DNA of 64,000 bases from Nitrospira sp. (GTDB taxonomy: Bacteria > Nitrospirota > Nitrospiria > Nitrospirales > Nitrospiraceae), in the NCBI GenBank assembly GCA_009594995.1, contig VOPR01000002.1, positions 1 to 64,000 on the forward strand, given 5' to 3'. The notes beneath the pieces were generated by a model. The model was not told where the DNA came from and ran no database searches. It worked only from the letters and a program-made list of their open reading frames with translations. A program made the translations under genes and the position numbers. Below, in pieces: positions 3,769 to 12,282 of the stretch. Within the stretch, counting starts at the first letter, position 1. Every line of letters starts with the position of its first letter.

Positions 3769-5658
3769 TCAGTCTTCAATCGTGGAGATATCGCCCACGT
3801 CCTGTCCCAACTCCTTCGCTTTGAGCACCCGGCGCATGATCTTGCCGGAGCGTGTTTTCGGCAACGATGGCACGATATCGATTTCCTGCGGCACGGCGAT
3901 TTTCCCCAACTCTTTCAGCACATGGTCTTTGAGCGATTGCACCAGCTCTTTCGAGTCCTGATAGCCCTGCTTCAAAATGACAAAGGCCTTGATTGCTTCA
4001 CCGGCGGTGCGGTGCGGCTTGCCGATCACCGCGGCTTCCGCCACGGCATCGTGACTGACCAACGCGCTTTCGACTTCCGCCGTCCCGATGCGGTTGCCCG
4101 CGACCTTGATCACGTCGTCCGCGCGCCCCATGAACCACATGTACCCGTCGTTGTCTTTCCGGCAGACATCGCCCGCCGTGTAACAATTGGGAATGGTATT
4201 CCAGTAGACCTTATACCGATCTGGATCCTTGTAAATGGTGCGCATCATCGACGGCCAGGGTTTCTTGATTACGGCAAAGCCGCCGGCATTGCTCGGCAAA
4301 CTGTTCCCTTCCTTGTCCACCACGTCGGCTTCAATGCCGAGAAACGGCCTGGTGGCCGAACCGGGCTTGAGCGGAACGGAGGGCAGGGGGGTGACCAGGA
4401 TGGAACCGGTTTCGGTCTGCCACCAGGTATCCATGATGGGTTTGTCGCTGCCGGTCACGCGATAGAACCATTCCCAAGCTTCCGGGTTGATCGGTTCACC
4501 GACGCTGCCGAGAATACGCAGGGTCGAGAGATCGTATTTCTTGGGCCAGTCTTCCCCGTACTTCATCAACAGCCGGACGGCCGTCGGTGTCGTGTAGAAA
4601 ATCGAGACGCCATAGCGGGCGATGAGATCCCACCAGCGTCCGGGGTTGGGGTAATCAGGCTTGCCCTCGGCCATGAGAATCGTCGCGCCGTTCAGCAACG
4701 GCCCATAGACGATGTAACTGTGTCCCGTCACCCACCCGGGATCGGCGACGCAGAAATAGACGTCGTCTTCCTTCAGGTCGAACACATATTTCGTCGTGAT
4801 GTAGGTGCCGACCATATAGCCGCCATGAACGTGGACGACGCCCTTGGGTTTTCCGGTGGTGCCGGAGGTGTACAAAATATAGAGCGGTGTTTCGGCGTCA
4901 AGCGGTTCTGCTGCGCAGACGGCGCTCTGCTCTTTCAGCCAGTCGGCCCAATCGACTTCTTTCGGCGCGGTGAGCGCGACCCCGAGGGCATCCCGCCGCA
5001 CCACCACGACTTTTTCCACGGAGGGACAGGTTTGCACGGCCGCGTCGACCACAGGCTTGAGTGGAATTGTTTTGCCGCGGTCATAGCCCACGTCGGCGGT
5101 GATGACGAGACGCGCTTCCGCATCCTGGATACGGCTCGCAAGGGCGGGTGCGCTGAATCCTGAGTAGACCACGCTATGGATCACGCCGATGCGCGCGCAG
5201 GCCAGCATGGCGACGACCTGCTCGGGAATTTTGGGTAGATAAATGGTGACCCGGTCGCCCTTCTTCAGTCCCATGGCTTTGAGCGCATTGGCGCAACGGT
5301 TGACCTGGCGTAACAGTTCTCCATACGTGAAGATGCGTTCTTCGCCGTTCTCGCCGACCCAGATGATGGCGACCTTGTTGCGGCGCCAGCTGTTCGCGTG
5401 GCGGTCCAAGCAGTTGTAGGCAATATTGCAGGTCGCGCCGACGAACCATTTTGCCCAGGGGTAATTCCATTCGAGCACCCGGCTCCACGGCGAGAACCAA
5501 TCCAGTTCCTTGGCCACGTTGCCCCAGAACGCTTCCGGATCGGCAATGGAGGCCTTGTAGGCCTCGTCATAATCCTGAATATGAGCCGCCGCCTTGGTGC
5601 GCGCGGATGGCTGAATGACACGTCCTTCTTTGAGTAGGGTATCGATCTTGTCGCTCAT
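3769..5658 (-). CDS. acs: acetyl-coenzyme A synthetase (AMP-forming)
   Basis: 629 residues from ATG 5658; an ATG nine bases earlier sits only one base from GGAGG, so the inner one is preferred. The enzyme makes acetyl-CoA from acetate, ATP and CoA through acetyl-AMP. Visible signatures are the adenylation loop YTSGTTGKPKGVVHVHGG, the TWWQTETG motif, and the C-terminal PKTRSGKIMRR. The lysine of the last (about residue 606) is the catalytic residue and the known acetylation target in the family. Length and domain order are those of a full Acs. The gene stands alone on the minus strand. Confidence 0.97.
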   Translation of the reverse strand: MSDKIDTLLKEGRVIQPSARTKAAAHIQDYDEAYKASIADPEAFWGNVAKELDWFSPWSRVLEWNYPWAKWFVGATCNIAYNCLDRHANSWRRNKVAIIWVGENGEERIFTYGELLRQVNRCANALKAMGLKKGDRVTIYLPKIPEQVVAMLACARIGVIHSVVYSGFSAPALASRIQDAEARLVITADVGYDRGKTIPLKPVVDAAVQTCPSVEKVVVVRRDALGVALTAPKEVDWADWLKEQSAVCAAEPLDAETPLYILYTSGTTGKPKGVVHVHGGYMVGTYITTKYVFDLKEDDVYFCVADPGWVTGHSYIVYGPLLNGATILMAEGKPDYPNPGRWWDLIARYGVSIFYTTPTAVRLLMKYGEDWPKKYDLSTLRILGSVGEPINPEAWEWFYRVTGSDKPIMDTWWQTETGSILVTPLPSVPLKPGSATRPFLGIEADVVDKEGNSLPSNAGGFAVIKKPWPSMMRTIYKDPDRYKVYWNTIPNCYTAGDVCRKDNDGYMWFMGRADDVIKVAGNRIGTAEVESALVSHDAVAEAAVIGKPHRTAGEAIKAFVILKQGYQDSKELVQSLKDHVLKELGKIAVPQEIDIVPSLPKTRSGKIMRRVLKAKELGQDVGDISTIED

Positions 5659-5823
5659 GGGTCCCATGCCTCCACAAAACGCGGGCCTTCCGGCGCGCGG
5701 TTCAATCGTCTACGGCATTATGCGGATGGGGAGGAGGAACTGCAACCCTTCAGGCTGCGCCGAGGTCCCGTCGAAAAGCGGGCATTGGCCGCATGGGACA
5801 AGGTCGGACGCGGGGCGCCTTTC

Positions 5824-5884: not shown

Positions 5885-7270
5885 ATGTACTCGCCGATCG
5901 CACCCCGTTTCCCGCGGATGATTGCCTGCCTGGTGGCCCTCTGCGCCGTCGGACTCTCCACTGATTCTTCGCCTGCCCATGCCCAGGCGGGAAAGCCGGA
6001 GGGGCTCTATTACAAGTCGTGGGCGGTCGTGGTCGGGGTGGAGAACTATCTCGTCGCGCCGAAAGTGCCCGGCGCGTTGGAGAGCTCGCATGCGGTGGCC
6101 GCGGTATTGCGTGGACTCGGCTTCGACGAAGTCATCGAATTGCAGGATAAGGAAGCCAGTTCGAGACGCCTGCTTCAGATTCTTAACGACTATCTCCCGC
6201 GCAAAGTGGGGCGCCAGGATCGTGTGGTGTTCTTTTTTGCCGGGCATGCCGGGGTGACGCAGGACTCTCAATCCAAAGATCTGGGCTTTGTGGTGCCCTG
6301 GGATGCTCAGCTCAATAATCCGGCCAAAGCCATTTCCTTGGATCAGCTCAAAGAGTTCAGCCGGCGGTCTGCCTCCAAACATATTCTGCTGCTGTTCGAT
6401 GCCAACCTGCGCGGCTGGGACGTGACGGCTCCGCAACCGCTGTCGTTAGAAGGACGCTTATCGCCGGAAAACGATACTGAAAAGCGATCCGTCCAAGTGC
6501 TCACCGCCGCTGAAAAAGAGGAAACGGTGGGCCGCGCTCCCGGGCAGAGTCCATTTGTCACGGCGCTGGTTGCCGGCTTGAAGGGTGCGGCGGATCTCAA
6601 CAAGAACGGCTGGGTGATGGCCAGCGAATTGGCGGCCCAGGTGAAGCAGGACGTGGAGCGCGAGACCAACGGCGCACAACATCCGCAGTTCATTCAACTC
6701 GAAGGCGATGGAGACGTCATCCTCGTCGAAGGGCGCAAGGAACTGTTTCTGCTCGGGAAGGAACCGAGCACGGAAGCAGACCGGATGAAGGAAGCCCGCG
6801 TGCAATACGAGCAGGCATTCGCGTTGTTGCAGCAGCAGAAGTCTGCAGAAGAAGCCCTGGAACGCCTCAATCGCGCAATTACGTACGATCCGTCCTTCGG
6901 AGACGCCTATGTGCTGAAGAGTTACATCCGGTTGGAAGTGCTGCCCGACCTGGAAGAGGCACTGGCGGCGGCTCGCGCGGCGGTACAACATGCGCCGCAG
7001 AATCCGGATTCCCATTACTCGTTGGCACTGGCCCTTGAGAAGAAGGGCCAGTACCAGGAGGCTGAGCGGGCCATGCAGCAGGCGCTGGCTGTGAACCCCG
7101 CCTATACTGATGTGTACTTCTCTCTGGGCATCCTCTACGCCGACCGGTTGAACGAGCCGCAGAAGTCCGTCGACGCGTTCCGTCGGTATCTGGAGTTGGG
7201 CGGTCAAAGCGAACGCGCGACTCACGCCGTTCAAGGTAACTCTGCCCCCGGTGAAAAACCCGCTCCTTAG
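5885..7270 (+). CDS. exported caspase-fold (peptidase C14-like) TPR protein lacking the catalytic Cys
   Basis: 461 residues from the ATG at 5885. A signal peptide ends at AHAQA (about residue 35). Residues 40-280 resemble the caspase p20 fold: the start WAVVVGVENY, the His strand FFFAGHAG (His121) and the following ILLLFDANLRG. Active C14 members have D-A-C-x-S-G at this last site. Here the cysteine is Asn174, and I find no cysteine anywhere in the mature part. The protein is therefore probably a non-proteolytic scaffold. Residues 300-445 hold three or four TPR units (for example DSHYSLALALEKKGQYQEAE). It lies just upstream of the lipoprotein block and may belong to the same envelope process (inference). 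Confidence 0.85.
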   Translation: MYSPIAPRFPRMIACLVALCAVGLSTDSSPAHAQAGKPEGLYYKSWAVVVGVENYLVAPKVPGALESSHAVAAVLRGLGFDEVIELQDKEASSRRLLQILNDYLPRKVGRQDRVVFFFAGHAGVTQDSQSKDLGFVVPWDAQLNNPAKAISLDQLKEFSRRSASKHILLLFDANLRGWDVTAPQPLSLEGRLSPENDTEKRSVQVLTAAEKEETVGRAPGQSPFVTALVAGLKGAADLNKNGWVMASELAAQVKQDVERETNGAQHPQFIQLEGDGDVILVEGRKELFLLGKEPSTEADRMKEARVQYEQAFALLQQQKSAEEALERLNRAITYDPSFGDAYVLKSYIRLEVLPDLEEALAAARAAVQHAPQNPDSHYSLALALEKKGQYQEAERAMQQALAVNPAYTDVYFSLGILYADRLNEPQKSVDAFRRYLELGGQSERATHAVQGNSAPGEKPAP

Positions 7271-7437
7271 TCCTTTCCTCCTCCTTTCAGATATCCCAGT
7301 CCGATCTTCAATGCCCGACGGGTAATCTCGGGCCAACGCACCTGCGGATATTCCGCCAGCACGGCGGCGGCCTTCGGGTCCTGAATGTCGAGTTGGACGA
7401 CCCGGATAATGCCGTCTTCAATCTGAACGTCTGCCAT
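7267..7437 (-). CDS. small conserved-looking protein of unknown function
   Basis: 56 residues starting MADVQIEDGIIRVVQLD and ending YLKGGGKD. The ATG at 7437 is preferred because GGAG precedes it by nine bases; the ATG 18 bases upstream has no site. Composition is balanced, with no signal peptide or membrane helix, so the product is probably cytoplasmic. Its 3' end overlaps the convergent caspase-fold gene by four bases. No family recognised. Confidence 0.55.
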   Translation of the reverse strand: MADVQIEDGIIRVVQLDIQDPKAAAVLAEYPQVRWPEITRRALKIGLGYLKGGGKD

Positions 7438-7517: not shown

Positions 7518-7546
7518 TTGACAGTGTTAGGGGTGCATGTTAGCAT
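7518..7546 (+). promoter_or_regulatory. sigma-70-like promoter of the lipoprotein block
   Basis: TTGACA (7518-7523), an exact 17-base spacer and TAGCAT (7541-7546) lie about 125 bases upstream of the first lipoprotein start at 7673. This is among the best promoter matches in the window. Confidence 0.6.
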
Positions 7547-7672
7547 AAAACCTGGTTTTTTCGCGCAATTGTGTCTCGTCACCAATTGAACCACACACGT
7601 CGATCTTCCAATATCTTGCCGCGTACAGTCGAGCCATCAGCTCTCACAGGGGTCATACCAAGGAGGAATCGT

Positions 7673-8239
7673 ATGAGTAGAGTGGAGGGGGCTTTGTCGA
7701 AGTTCACCGGGAGCGCACTGGCGCTCGTACTCCTCATCGGACTGACTGCATGCGGTGGTCCTCCGAACTGGGTGAAGAAGGGATCCGGGGCGTTCAACGA
7801 GAAAAGCGATAAGTCCTTCTACGGGGTTGGTTCGGTGGTCGGTGTCCGCAATGAACCGTTAGCCTGGGACACGGCGGAGAACCGGAGCCGCGCGGAAATT
7901 GCCAAGACCTTCGAAACCTATACCGCTTATTTGATGCGCGATTACGCGGCCTCGACGACGGCCGGCGATTTTTCCCGCAACAGTGAAGAACAGAATATCG
8001 AGCGGGCGGTGAAGACGTTCTCTGCGGTGACTCTCAACGGCGTCAAGCCGATGGATCGGTACAAAGACGAGAAATCCGGCACCTACTACGTACTCACCAA
8101 GCTCAGTCTCGAAGATATGAAAAACAACCTGGAACAGGCGAAAGAACTCAATAGCCAGGTCCGGGACTTTGTGCGAAAGAATGCCGACCGGTTGTTCGAC
8201 CGTCTGGAGAAGGAAGAAGACAAGCGGGCGACGAAGTAA
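7673..8239 (+). CDS. LPP20-family lipoprotein
   Basis: 188 residues. The ATG at 7673 has a strong AAGGAGG seven bases upstream, so the longer 222-residue frame is an artefact. The signal peptide ends with a lipobox (LIGLTAC), giving a lipid-anchored mature protein. The mature start PPNWVKKG, then KSFYGVGSV and repeated polar helices, matches the LPP20 type, in which a small alpha/beta domain faces the periplasm. It is the first gene of a block with LpoB-like, COG3014-like and second LPP20-like lipoproteins, about 40 bases before the LpoB-like gene. Exact role unknown. Confidence 0.8.
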   Translation: MSRVEGALSKFTGSALALVLLIGLTACGGPPNWVKKGSGAFNEKSDKSFYGVGSVVGVRNEPLAWDTAENRSRAEIAKTFETYTAYLMRDYAASTTAGDFSRNSEEQNIERAVKTFSAVTLNGVKPMDRYKDEKSGTYYVLTKLSLEDMKNNLEQAKELNSQVRDFVRKNADRLFDRLEKEEDKRATK

Positions 8240-8277
8240 TCACGGCATGGTCGGGGCAGTTGTCAGGAGGAGCGAGC

Positions 8278-8907
8278 ATGATTGAGTGGCGGAATCATTC
8301 TTTGAGCCGAACAGTTGCGACGATGCTGTTGGTTGGATGTGCCGCCGCCGTCAGCGGGTGTGGCCATGAGACCAAAGTGACGCGCGTCGATACGGGCGTG
8401 GTTACCGACCTCAGCGGGCGTTGGAACGATACGGACTCCCAAATGGTGGCCGAGGCCATGGTCAAGGAAGCCTTAGGCAATCCCTGGCTCGGCAACTTCA
8501 CCAAAGGCAAGAATCGTCAGCCTGTCGTCATCGTCGGGACGGTGCTCAACAAGAGTCACGAACATATCAATGTGCAGACGTTCGTGAATGATCTGGAACG
8601 TGAATTGACCAATTCTCAGAAAGTGACCTTTGTCGCTGCCAAAGGGGAACGCGACGAGGTGCGTGAAGAGCGCCGTGAACAGGCCGTCCATGCTCGCGAA
8701 GACACGCAAAAGGCGCCCGGCAAGGAAGTCGGCGCCGACTACATGATGCGCGGGAGCATCGCCACCATCCTCGACGAGCAGGATGGCGCCAAGGCGGTCT
8801 TCTACCAGATCGATCTGGAAATGGTGGATATGGAAAACAACGTGAAGGCCTGGTTCGGACAGAAGAAGATCAAGAAAGTCGTCGAAAAGAAACGAACGAT
8901 TTTTTAG
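8278..8907 (+). CDS. LpoB-type penicillin-binding-protein activator lipoprotein
   Basis: 209 residues from ATG 8278, preceded by AGGAGG; a TTG six codons upstream is unlikely. The lipobox is AVSGC. The mature part has the LpoB pattern: VTDLSGRWNDTDSQMVAEAM, then RQPVVIVGTVLNKSHEHINV, and the late GADYMMRGSIATI. In Enterobacteria LpoB stimulates the peptidoglycan synthase PBP1b from the outer membrane. Whether this homologue activates a PBP is inferred from family alone. It lies between two lipoprotein genes and is followed by a clear terminator hairpin. Confidence 0.85.
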   Translation: MIEWRNHSLSRTVATMLLVGCAAAVSGCGHETKVTRVDTGVVTDLSGRWNDTDSQMVAEAMVKEALGNPWLGNFTKGKNRQPVVIVGTVLNKSHEHINVQTFVNDLERELTNSQKVTFVAAKGERDEVREERREQAVHAREDTQKAPGKEVGADYMMRGSIATILDEQDGAKAVFYQIDLEMVDMENNVKAWFGQKKIKKVVEKKRTIF

Positions 8908-8945
8908 CCCGACGTATTCTGTTGAGACCCCATCTCCCATCGACC

Positions 8946-8975
8946 ACGGCCTCCCCTCAGGGAGGCCGTTTCATT
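8946..8975 (+). terminator. rho-independent terminator after the LpoB-like gene
   Basis: A perfect 10-base-pair stem (8946-8955 with 8960-8969, ACGGCCTCCC/GGGAGGCCGT) with a CTCA loop is followed by TTCATTTC. It may attenuate rather than end transcription, because the block continues 20 bases later in the same orientation. Confidence 0.7.
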
Positions 8976-8996
8976 TCTCGCCCCGCCCTGGCAGCC

Positions 8997-10418
8997 ATGT
9001 GTTGGGGCTTGTTATGGCTGCTGTCCGGCTGCGGGTTGTCCGGCAACCATTACCTTCTCATCGACCAGAGTCTGGTCGCACACGACCCTCGCCAGGCAGA
9101 TGCCATCATGGCGCAAGCGGAGTCCGAATACGGATCACGCAATCGCCTCCTGTACAGCATGGACCGGGGGATGACCCTCCATCTGGCCGGCGAGTACGTA
9201 CAGAGCAATTCACAGCTTGAGCTGGCGGCACAGGAAGTCGAACGACTGTACACGCGCACGATCAGGACGGAAACCGCCGCGTTTCTGACCAATGACAACA
9301 TGCTGCCGTACGAAGGCGACCCGTATGAACATGTGATGATCAACATCATCAAGGCGCTGAACTATGCGGCCATGGGGCAGTTGATGGAGGCCGTCGTCGA
9401 GGCGCGGCAGATCGATCACCGGCTGAACGTGTTGTCCGACAGCGCAAAAGAAAAAGACGGGTATCGCGAGGATGCGTTTGCTCGTTACCTGACCGGCCTG
9501 TTGTACGAATCAACCGGCGATCTCAACAATGCCTTCATTGCCTATCGGAAGGCCTTCGAAATTTACGAGGCGACGAAGGGCTGGGCGCGCACGCCCATGC
9601 CGCCGATGCTTCGTGAGGATCTCCTGCGGACGACGAATGCCCTGCATATGACGACCGAGTTTGAGGAGTACCGGCGCCAGTTTCCTGAGACGCATTGGGT
9701 GCCCCGGGAGGAGCAGCCGAACCTCGCCCAGGTGGTAGTGATCGGCTATAATGGCCGCGCGCCGCGCAAGGAAGAAGCCTTCCTCGACATCCCGATCAGT
9801 CTGAGCGCACTACAGTTGGTGCTGTTGAATCGGGGTGTCATCCATGCGTCGAATCGCCAGGAGCGCCGCGCGGCGGACAGTGTGCTGTATGGCCTGAACG
9901 GACGTGTTGTGCGTGTCGCGTTGCCCAAATTGGTGCCGCAAAAAACGCAGATCATGCATGAGGCGGTGACTCTGGTGCCTCGAGAAGGCGCGCCGATCTC
10001 CGCCAAATCTGAGTTGGTCTACAACGGGACGGCGCTGGCGGAACGGTCTCTGTCAGATCGGCTGCCGGGCATCACCACGAAAGCGCTCGCCCGCGCCGCG
10101 GTGAAATTTGCGGCAGCTGAGGCTGCCACACGTGGGTCGCAACATGCGGTCAACAAGGGCGACGCACCGTGGGTCGGGTTGCTGGTGGGAGTGCTCGCGC
10201 ATGGGCTGGCCATCGCGTCGGAAGTTGCCGATACCAGAAGCTGGCGCACGTTGCCGGATGAGATTCAGATTTCCCGCCTCTGGGTGCCGCCCGGTGAATA
10301 TGAAAGCCGCATTCAGGCCGTGACGCGACAAGGCGGCGCGCTGCAGACAGGTCCCTCGCATCCATTGGTCCTGCGCGCGGGGCAAACGATCTTCCTGATC
10401 GAACGAGTGATGTTATGA
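8997..10418 (+). CDS. COG3014-like TPR lipoprotein
   Basis: 473 residues from ATG 8997, with a very short lipoprotein signal (LWLLSGC). A TTG at 8922 would give 498 residues and a positive N-region but would put the terminator stem inside the gene, so the start is uncertain. The mature part holds tandem helical repeats: a region with HLAGEYVQSNSQLELAAQEV, a conserved-looking NDNMLPYEGDPYEHVMIN, and a TPR pair near YLTGLLYESTGDLNNAFIAY. These match the COG3014 family, which often neighbours LpoB and LPP20 genes. The C-terminal 200 residues are beta-rich. The role is in the envelope but otherwise unknown. Confidence 0.75.
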   Translation: MCWGLLWLLSGCGLSGNHYLLIDQSLVAHDPRQADAIMAQAESEYGSRNRLLYSMDRGMTLHLAGEYVQSNSQLELAAQEVERLYTRTIRTETAAFLTNDNMLPYEGDPYEHVMINIIKALNYAAMGQLMEAVVEARQIDHRLNVLSDSAKEKDGYREDAFARYLTGLLYESTGDLNNAFIAYRKAFEIYEATKGWARTPMPPMLREDLLRTTNALHMTTEFEEYRRQFPETHWVPREEQPNLAQVVVIGYNGRAPRKEEAFLDIPISLSALQLVLLNRGVIHASNRQERRAADSVLYGLNGRVVRVALPKLVPQKTQIMHEAVTLVPREGAPISAKSELVYNGTALAERSLSDRLPGITTKALARAAVKFAAAEAATRGSQHAVNKGDAPWVGLLVGVLAHGLAIASEVADTRSWRTLPDEIQISRLWVPPGEYESRIQAVTRQGGALQTGPSHPLVLRAGQTIFLIERVML

Positions 10419-11554
10419 GGTCATTCATGCGCATCCTGACGGATCGAGGGGGACGAGCCGGTCTGGTTGCACTGGCCTTGCTGGTGTGTGCCGGATGCGG
10501 ATGGTTGGGCGGATCATCCCGTCCGTCCTGGATCGACGGCAACAGCACCCAGTTCCCTTCTACGCAATATCTCGTGGGCGTGGGCCAGGCGGATTCGCGC
10601 CCTCAAGCCACGGAACAGGCCTATGCGGCCGTCTCGAGAATTTTCAAGGCGGAGATCACGGCGCAGGCGAAGGATTGGGAATCGTACCTGGTGGTGGAAA
10701 CACGCGGGCACACGAACACGGAACGCCGGTTGACTCTCGACAATGTCACGCGTGTGACCACGGACAAGGTGCTGGAAAATGTGCAGGTTCTGGATACTTG
10801 GTTTGACCAAAAGGCGCGACAGTACTATGCTCTGGCAGGCATGAACCGGGCGCAAGCGGAATCAGCGATGGTTGAACGCCTCACGGAGCTCGATCGGACG
10901 ATTCAAACGGAAGTGACCGAAGCGCATCAGACTCAGGATAAGCTTTCACACGTGCGTAATCTGAAACGGGCCGCCAAGAATCTGGTTCTCCGCGAAGCCT
11001 ACAATGCCGATCTGCGCACGATTCGATCGAGCGGGCAGGGCAATGCGGCTGCCTATCGAGTGGCTGATTTGATCGCTGAACTGGAACAGTTTCTAGCCGC
11101 GAACATGGGGATGGCGGTAGAAGTAGCGGGCGAGCAGGCGGAGCCGCTTGAGCGGGCACTCATGGATGGCCTCACGCAGGAAGGGTTCTCCGTTGTGGGT
11201 CATGGCCGCGGCGCCGGTGCCTCTCCGGCAGAGTTGTTCATCAAAGGAACCGTGCGGATGTGGCCGATCGAGGTGCCTGATCCCCAGTTCCGGTATGTTC
11301 GATGGTGCACGGACGCAGTGATTGAAGAGATGTCGACCCACCGTGTCATCGGCGCGGTATCGAAAGGCGGGAAAGAAGGGCATGTGACGGAACGCGAGGC
11401 TGCGGCCAAAGCCGTTCGCGTCATGCAGCAGGAATTTTCGTCCGATCTGGCCCATGCTGTGGCGGCGCATGTGTATGGGGAGACTGAACTATCGGTGTCG
11501 ACCGCTGCGCCGTCCGGTTGTCCAAGAGAGGCGGCCCAGCCGCCTAGTCGTTAG
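10415..11554 (+). CDS. second LPP20-family lipoprotein, long form
   Basis: 379 residues overlapping the COG3014-like stop by four bases (ATGA). An ATG four codons later is also possible. The lipobox is LLVCAGC. Residues 35-130 repeat the LPP20 layout seen at 7673 (RPSWIDG, then TQYLVGVGQADS and a series of A-rich helices). Residues 140-220 are charged helices, and 230-350 form a second alpha/beta domain (AELFIKGTVRMWPIEV). It is roughly twice the length of the first LPP20 protein. The overlap implies coupled translation with the COG3014-like protein. Function unknown. Confidence 0.75.
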   Translation: MRSFMRILTDRGGRAGLVALALLVCAGCGWLGGSSRPSWIDGNSTQFPSTQYLVGVGQADSRPQATEQAYAAVSRIFKAEITAQAKDWESYLVVETRGHTNTERRLTLDNVTRVTTDKVLENVQVLDTWFDQKARQYYALAGMNRAQAESAMVERLTELDRTIQTEVTEAHQTQDKLSHVRNLKRAAKNLVLREAYNADLRTIRSSGQGNAAAYRVADLIAELEQFLAANMGMAVEVAGEQAEPLERALMDGLTQEGFSVVGHGRGAGASPAELFIKGTVRMWPIEVPDPQFRYVRWCTDAVIEEMSTHRVIGAVSKGGKEGHVTEREAAAKAVRVMQQEFSSDLAHAVAAHVYGETELSVSTAAPSGCPREAAQPPSR

Positions 11555-11588
11555 CAGCTGCAATCAACCACAGGAGAGAGGAGCGGGG

Positions 11589-11837
11589 ATGCGTAAAACA
11601 GGGACCCGGAAGGCGGGCGAACCAGCCGGCGGCGGACGCCGGCTATCGAGCCAGGCAATGAAAAAACGGTTGCGCGAGCGGCTGAGCACAGATACGCAGC
11701 AGGTGCTGACGAGCGACATCGTAAGCATTTTTCGCAAGCAGGGCTACTACGAGGAATTGCCGCTGGATGAGTTGCAGGATCGCCTTTCCAAACTCCAGTC
11801 GCCGCTGGCCGACAGTCTCTTGAAGGGGAGGGTATAG
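11589..11837 (+). CDS. small basic protein paired with a PIN-domain protein
   Basis: 82 residues from ATG 11589, with a purine-rich site (AGGAGAGAGGAG) upstream. The first 35 residues are Lys/Arg/Gly-rich and probably disordered. Residues 40-80 are helical (QQVLTSDIVSIFRKQGYYEE). It ends one base before the PIN-domain gene, the spacing typical of antitoxin-toxin pairs, but it does not look like the usual AbrB, RHH or Phd antitoxins. An antitoxin role is inference from position only. Confidence 0.6.
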   Translation: MRKTGTRKAGEPAGGGRRLSSQAMKKRLRERLSTDTQQVLTSDIVSIFRKQGYYEELPLDELQDRLSKLQSPLADSLLKGRV

Positions 11838-11838
11838 G

Positions 11839-12282
11839 ATGCCCTATTACTATTTTGATTCCACGGCACTGGTCAAGCGCTACAGCATGGAACGCGGCAC
11901 TCGTGTGGTCAACAAACTCATGGTGAAGCGCGGCAAGGTGGCCATTCTTCCCATGTGGAGCGTCACGGATTTTTATTCGGCCTTGTCCGTCCGCGCACAG
12001 CAGGGGGAAATTACCCGGGACGATTGCTATTCGGTGTTATACAAGTTCGAGATGGAAGCCTCGCAGGGACTTTTTCAGTTTATTTCTCCGACGATGGATA
12101 CCTATCTCGCGGCGAAGGAATTGATCCTGGACTACCCGGCGCTGCGTTCGCCGCAGCTTCTACACCTGGCCTTAGCCCTGGAACTGAAACCGCTTCGGCT
12201 GACGGTCGTCAGTGCGGATAAACAGCTGTTGGCAGCCTGCCGTCCCGCCGGGTTGCACATCATCAATCCGGAAGACGACTAG
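11839..12282 (+). CDS. PIN-domain (VapC-like) protein with an incomplete acidic site
   Basis: 147 residues. PIN domains are Mg-dependent ribonucleases using three or four acidic residues. Here the first is clear (YYFDSTALVKRY, Asp7), the second position has Asp44 (VTDFYSAL), and the fourth is Asp127 (TVVSADKQLL). The third site, normally Asp in 'LxxxDxLHLA', reads SPQLLHLA, with Gln106. Activity may be reduced or lost. The gene follows the 82-residue protein by one base, suggesting co-expression. It ends at a palindromic element. Confidence 0.8.
   Translation: MPYYYFDSTALVKRYSMERGTRVVNKLMVKRGKVAILPMWSVTDFYSALSVRAQQGEITRDDCYSVLYKFEMEASQGLFQFISPTMDTYLAAKELILDYPALRSPQLLHLALALELKPLRLTVVSADKQLLAACRPAGLHIINPEDD

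Follow-up and report, generated by a model that had tools for sequence, protein, structure and literature searches.

An exported pseudo-orthocaspase conserved across a family of Nitrospira, predicted to be a periplasmic binding module without catalytic activity

The window analyzed here is a stretch of 64,000 nucleotides from Nitrospira sp. (contig VOPR01000002.1, positions 1 to 64,000), in which an open reading frame with an ATG start (5885–7270, forward strand) encodes a protein of 461 aa. Our analysis suggests that this protein is a Sec-exported dead orthocaspase, which would already have been fixed when the GTDB Nitrospira family had its common ancestor and probably persists as a non-catalytic binding module in the periplasm. 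Taken separately, it is very likely that the window protein is dead as a caspase and does not cut by the caspase mechanism, and there is a slightly better than even chance that the dead domain is a binding module, as its conservation suggests. Within the window's GTDB family, 165 of the 175 genomes have the gene (111 of the 114 good ones), and no orthologue was detected outside the family among 246 genomes drawn across the phylum, where the best matches are at most 34% identical. A true gene loss was considered for genome G006 and rejected, as its contig begins between the gene and the first LPP20 lipoprotein gene (LPP20a), which makes an assembly break likelier. The gene and its product are laid out as follows:

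5885–7270, forward strand: exported pseudo-orthocaspase with C-terminal TPRs, 461 aa (ORF reading, Pfam C14 and TPR matches, AlphaFold2 model and fold match)
5885–5983, forward strand: Sec signal peptide, residues 1–33, with cleavage likely after AHA33 (from reading the sequence; predicted cleavage site)
5984–6022, forward strand: N-terminal segment of the mature protein, QxGxPEGLYYKSW, residues 34–46, a family hallmark by alignment
6002–6733, forward strand: predicted caspase-fold domain, residues 40–283 (VIA-align Z 23.3 to MALT1)
6242–6253, forward strand: GHAG, residues 120–123, with His121 kept (121 of 121 distinct sequences)
6398–6415, forward strand: DANLRG, residues 172–177, in which Asn174 (AAC, 6404–6406) replaces the nucleophile Cys (aligned to the DxC of active relatives)
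6593–6628, forward strand: EF-hand-type loop D-x-[ND]-x-N-G-x5-E, residues 237–248, a putative Ca2+ site (family alignment)
6773–7237, forward strand: TPR region, residues ~297–451 (Pfam TPR matches, predicted helices)

The window protein matches Peptidase_C14 (PF00656, Pfam) at residues 45–271 (E 5e-11, 43.1 bits vs. a cut-off of 21.4), and its AlphaFold2 model, built from a 57-sequence alignment (A1; mean pLDDT 83), was superimposed by VIA-align on the MALT1 paracaspase with an rmsd of 2.5 over 205 residues. The profile match and the predicted fold, which both extend through the p10-like part (residues 200–283), identify the protein as a member of Peptidase_C14 with a predicted caspase fold. 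Pfam TPR models match at ~300–440, and the predicted model contains four helical hairpins beyond residue 320. The preliminary description, made from the letters of the sequence, had proposed a pseudo-caspase of caspase fold with three or four attached TPRs, and both proposals agree with the Pfam matches and the model, in which the fold is intact and about four hairpins can be counted. NCBIfam returned sub-cutoff matches alone for the window protein, and a sequence search against solved structures returned TPR proteins alone among the matches listed.

The description had also noted a retained GHAG motif, Asn174 in the place of the nucleophile and a mature part devoid of cysteine, all of which the sequence confirms. 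The only cysteines of the window protein are residues 15 and 20, both within the signal peptide; they are not conserved in the family (many homologues lack them), and they sit in the hydrophobic stretch with no fit to the lipobox pattern [LVI][ASTVI][GAS]C at the cleavage site. On its own, the Cys-poverty of the mature protein is unremarkable, because the mature parts of the neighbouring LPP20a, LpoB and TPR lipoproteins are likewise free of cysteine beyond the signal/lipobox region.

We collected relatives from whole genomes and GTDB contigs and compared 121 distinct family sequences. Position 174 is occupied by Pro (39), Ala (36), Asn (27), Gly (16), Ser (2) or Glu (1), and by Cys in none of them; the expectation that Asn would be conserved at this site thus fails, as the residue is a clade-dependent state and Asn is that of the window's own genus. 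The complementary expectation, that no homologue would possess an intact Cys, holds: a nucleophile at a shifted position was ruled out, since only 2 cysteines occur among the 24,209 residues of the mature parts of 57 homologues. Active relatives (at most 34% identity) retain GH and DxC, and the other C14 homologues from the same genome set with both sites aligned keep H..C, except for a second pseudo-caspase family described below; the broken dyad is thus no chance feature. In a tree of 107 caspase domains, calculated with site 174 excluded, a single branch (SH-aLRT 99) separates the 82 pseudo-caspases from the remaining domains, and among these 82 site 174 has changed at least 9 times. The single branch and the absence of Cys from every homologue therefore indicate that the nucleophile was lost once, ahead of the radiation of the GTDB family, and was never regained, the site having drifted since without reversal. 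We also considered Asn174 as an alternative, self-cleaving nucleophile; this was ruled out, as Ala and Pro are each commoner at this site and Gly occurs there too.

The substrate-binding side of the machinery appears to have decayed as well. The S1 pocket of a Trypanosoma brucei metacaspase is flanked by two Asp residues whose high conservation in pseudo-orthocaspases has been reported (PMC6426788); residues 67 and 172, which we equate with Asp95 and Asp211 of TbMC2 from the alignment with active relatives and from PMC6426788, are Asp in 82 and 94 of the 121 sequences, respectively. The window protein has Ser67 and Asp172: Asp67 is replaced by Ser in its genus, and Asp172 by Asn in other clades. 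This erosion of the S1 acids suggests that the peptidase machinery is relaxed as a whole, and together with the loss of the nucleophile it argues against peptidase activity after Arg/Lys. The features of an active orthocaspase are thus not found, the His-Cys dyad being broken in 121 of 121 sequences and the paired S1 acids incomplete. What is found is a predicted p20-type caspase-fold domain with a substituted dyad residue, i.e. a putative pseudo-orthocaspase.

The most conserved stretch of the family is the N-terminal motif, as G36, P38, L41, Y42, Y43, S45 and W46 are present in 120 of the 121 sequences, the remaining one being incomplete; the QxGxPEGLYYKSW segment was found in none of the active relatives inspected. 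The EF-hand-type loop has D237, N241, G242 and E248 in 121/121, and a DxNxDG..E loop is also found in most active relatives; calcium binding by residues 237–248 is possible. In the 57-sequence alignment S45, K165, H166, R201, Q204 and W178 are invariant. His121 is one among about 70 invariant columns, and the groove is no more conserved than the remainder of the caspase domain. In the second pseudo-caspase family the His is usually replaced as well (by R, N, Q or S), which suggests that its retention in the first family has been selected and is not forced by the fold.

Such conservation could indicate that the protein is still an enzyme, one that catalyzes a new reaction by means of His121 and either a metal or a different nucleophile: His121 has stayed invariant despite the drifting Cys site, as have the six residues listed above. 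Ala, Pro or Gly at position 174 in most homologues, the absence of a conserved Ser/Thr at the nucleophile site and the erosion of the S1 acids speak against this explanation, and we regard it as improbable. A related idea, in which His121 and its surroundings have become an active site or ligand site of a new, non-protease type (e.g. a transferase or ligand-sensing centre) with a core place in the cell envelope of Nitrospira, we likewise consider a long shot.

In the binding-module reading that we prefer, the dead orthocaspase goes back to the common ancestor of the GTDB Nitrospira family, in which it was fixed, and Sec export would lead to residence in the periplasm, a location that fits the signal peptide. 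Since the single loss of the nucleophile, purifying selection has held the fold, His121, the N-terminal motif of the mature protein and the EF-hand-like loop. The dead domain may bind a protein or peptide through the old groove (His121 and neighbouring conserved residues), the invariant N-terminal segment may help to hold a putative conserved envelope partner, and the TPRs would add a second binding surface in most species.

Purifying selection on the gene is strong. Against 13 same-genus homologues, the median dN/dS of the whole gene is 0.078; the caspase domain has 0.062, the TPRs have 0.043 and the signal peptide has 0.51. The lost catalytic residue, and stops in a few MAG copies in the stretch first taken (e.g. 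L066, L104), might point to a pseudogene in decay or to an artefact of annotation, but the frame is open in nearly all of the 165 genomes, dN/dS is 0.08 and the predicted fold is intact. The selection analysis had already refuted this reading, and its probability is negligible. The preliminary description saw a periplasmic scaffold or sensor in the pseudo-caspase with its attached TPRs. The idea that the TPRs are the essential scaffold does not survive comparison: in three separate subclades the proteins end at three different places shortly past the caspase domain (open frames of 303–370 codons), no residual TPR sequence is detectable downstream, and dN/dS of the caspase domain is 0.09–0.12 in the two TPR-less subclades measured. 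Since purifying selection still acts on the caspase domain of subclades that have no TPRs, the dead domain is the retained part and the TPRs are accessory.

A catalytically dead homologue might also act as a c-FLIP-like regulator or decoy, controlling by pairing those orthocaspases of its cell that are still catalytically competent, and many Nitrospira genomes, including that of the window, do encode C14 proteins with an intact His-Cys. Against this, the pseudo-caspase is the sole C14 homologue at E≤1 in G030, G033, G188 and G109 (completeness 99–100%), in a search that is non-exhaustive, as it missed known pseudo-caspases in G034 and G082, although active C14 proteins usually score higher. 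Since these four near-complete genomes show no other C14 homologue, an obligate regulatory role of this kind is unlikely, and we give the explanation in general little credence.

The preliminary description further proposed the downstream lipoproteins as partners of the protein. The neighbourhood consists of:

3769–5667, reverse strand: acs-like gene, divergent upstream neighbour, which remains next to the pseudo-caspase also at loci without adjacent lipoproteins
7267–7437, reverse strand: conserved convergent gene for a 56-aa protein (MADVQIEDG...), between the pseudo-caspase and the lipoproteins (locus comparison)
7518–7546: promoter-like, sigma-70-like site TTGACA-17-TAGCAT, just before the lipoproteins
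7571–11554, forward strand: separate unit of four lipoproteins (Pfam; context)
7571–8239, forward strand: LPP20-like lipoprotein (Pfam)
8260–8907, forward strand: LpoB-like lipoprotein (Pfam)
8922–10418, forward strand: TPR lipoprotein (Pfam)
10415–11554, forward strand: LPP20 lipoprotein (Pfam)

Synteny of the pseudo-caspase with the lipoproteins is kept in most loci, as would be expected if it were a scaffold or sensor that works with the LPP20, LpoB and TPR lipoproteins. However, in most loci the conserved convergent gene intervenes, and the lipoproteins are preceded by their own promoter-like site. The two also occur apart: in sister families f2 and f3, acs, the 56-aa gene and the lipoprotein cluster are present without the pseudo-caspase, and conversely in L090, L098 and L100 the pseudo-caspase adjoins acs with no lipoproteins downstream. 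A paralogue in L103 and L108 sits with multihaem cytochromes instead. A common operon was ruled out by the convergent gene, the promoter-like site and the separate occurrence, and the partnership is doubtful. As f2 and f3 have the flanking genes without it, the pseudo-caspase was most likely inserted later. The 56-aa gene accompanies the pseudo-caspase in 163 of 176 loci and is also found in the sister families without it. Its product (MADVQIEDGIIRVVQL...), which has no match in Pfam, is about 70–100% identical across Nitrospira, with its gene divergent from the LPP20/LpoB lipoprotein cluster, and is apparently an undescribed conserved small protein.

The divergent paralogue just mentioned, from N. 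moscoviensis (L103) and UBA5699 (L108), starts 12 bases past a multihaem cytochrome gene. It belongs to a gene run (L103:649–7299; same layout in L108) that also encodes two multihaem cytochromes c, an EB_dh (ethylbenzene dehydrogenase-type) haem protein and a TPR protein. This neighbourhood would fit a periplasmic factor that helps redox complexes to assemble or mature, but it is limited to this paralogue, and some f2 and f3 genomes carry the nitrite oxidoreductase beta subunit gene (nxrB) without the pseudo-caspase, so the protein is not needed for that enzyme. We consider the redox role a poor bet and the cytochrome neighbourhood a lead, not the general context. The presence of nxrB in f2 and f3 without the gene also implies that the pseudo-caspase is not required for nitrite oxidation. 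Co-occurrence gave no support for a link with nitrite oxidoreductase either: it does not discriminate, since nxrB is present in the gene-less sister families and absent from many MAGs.

Pseudo-orthocaspases are an already established kind of protein, which account for 858 of 9,994 orthocaspases, 90% of them in Alphaproteobacteria or Cyanobacteria; those with an FS dyad (Rhizobiales) carry C-terminal TPRs, and HA dyads have been reported (PMC6426788). The Nitrospira protein resembles them (PMC6426788; SyOC of Synechocystis, PMC7889975) in its p20-type domain without the His-Cys dyad, in the C-terminal TPRs that some of them possess, and in the Asn that YN variants have at the same site. It differs in that the His is always kept and the Cys site alone drifts, in that it often lacks one or the other of the two S1 Asp residues for which high conservation was described in those proteins, and in its Sec signal peptide and its presence in about 165 of the 175 genomes from a single Nitrospirota family. 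It is the retained His, the drift of the Cys site and the erosion of the S1 pocket that this lineage adds. The caspase domains of active exported Nitrospira orthocaspases (e.g. L125, L131, L250, L252) are at most 34% identical to that of the pseudo-caspase. Most of these orthocaspases likewise have the DxNxDG..E loop and an export signal at the N-terminus, but they keep GHG, the D-x-C site and Asp67 of the S1 pocket and have neither the QxGxPEGLYY motif nor the same arrangement of TPRs. MALT1 and plant metacaspases (PDB 3uo8, 6w8s) share the fold (Z 22–23), but are catalytically active, eukaryotic and 15–19% identical.

In the literature on Nitrospira and caspases or peptidase C14 the sole relevant find was a 2012 survey (PMC3501461), and nothing was found on this protein. 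The available portion of that survey gives a dyad conservation of just 57% in Nitrospirae and does not describe the Nitrospira pseudo-caspase family, which offers an explanation for this figure as given there. The family extends pseudo-orthocaspases, hitherto mainly tied to photosynthetic lineages, to nitrite-oxidising Nitrospira. It also provides a clean natural example of a pseudo-enzyme: the protease domain lost its nucleophile a single time and was then conserved family-wide, with TPRs discarded several times, and the role of the dead domain could be tested without confusion by an active copy, as some near-complete genomes apparently have no other caspase homologue.

A tandem duplication of the pseudo-caspase was found at L095:6001–9441 and L218:4061–7594, two loci that may stem from the same organism, and both copies have Pro at the nucleophile site. 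The second exported pseudo-caspase family of Nitrospirales is independent (L098:7403–9274, L090:7376–9253, L100:7403–9274, L229:1138–2994, L237 and L238) and is also represented in the genome of the window, by a copy that a contig end cuts short (G000:C19:69354–69848, L231). These are long proteins, mostly with a lipobox, with a weak CARDB match in L098 and a C-terminal caspase domain that has R..S, N..S, Q..M, S..A or H..G instead of His-Cys. Like the first family, these CARDB-type lipoproteins (L229, L098, L237, L238, L231) are exported and have a caspase domain with a lost dyad, but they form a separate clade, most lose the His too, and they have a long N-terminal lipoprotein part and no TPRs that we could see. 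In L090, L098 and L100 the second-family gene adjoins the first pseudo-caspase in convergent orientation.

The lipoprotein cluster itself (two LPP20-family members, the LpoB-like and the TPR lipoprotein) is conserved across Nitrospirales families f1–f3; a literature search on LPP20, LpoB and COG3014 found nothing useful. Beside it, a PIN-like ORF (11839–12282) and a small upstream ORF (11454–11837) look by their sequences like a toxin/antitoxin pair, which holds its place next to the cluster across the family, an unusual constancy for a toxin-antitoxin pair.
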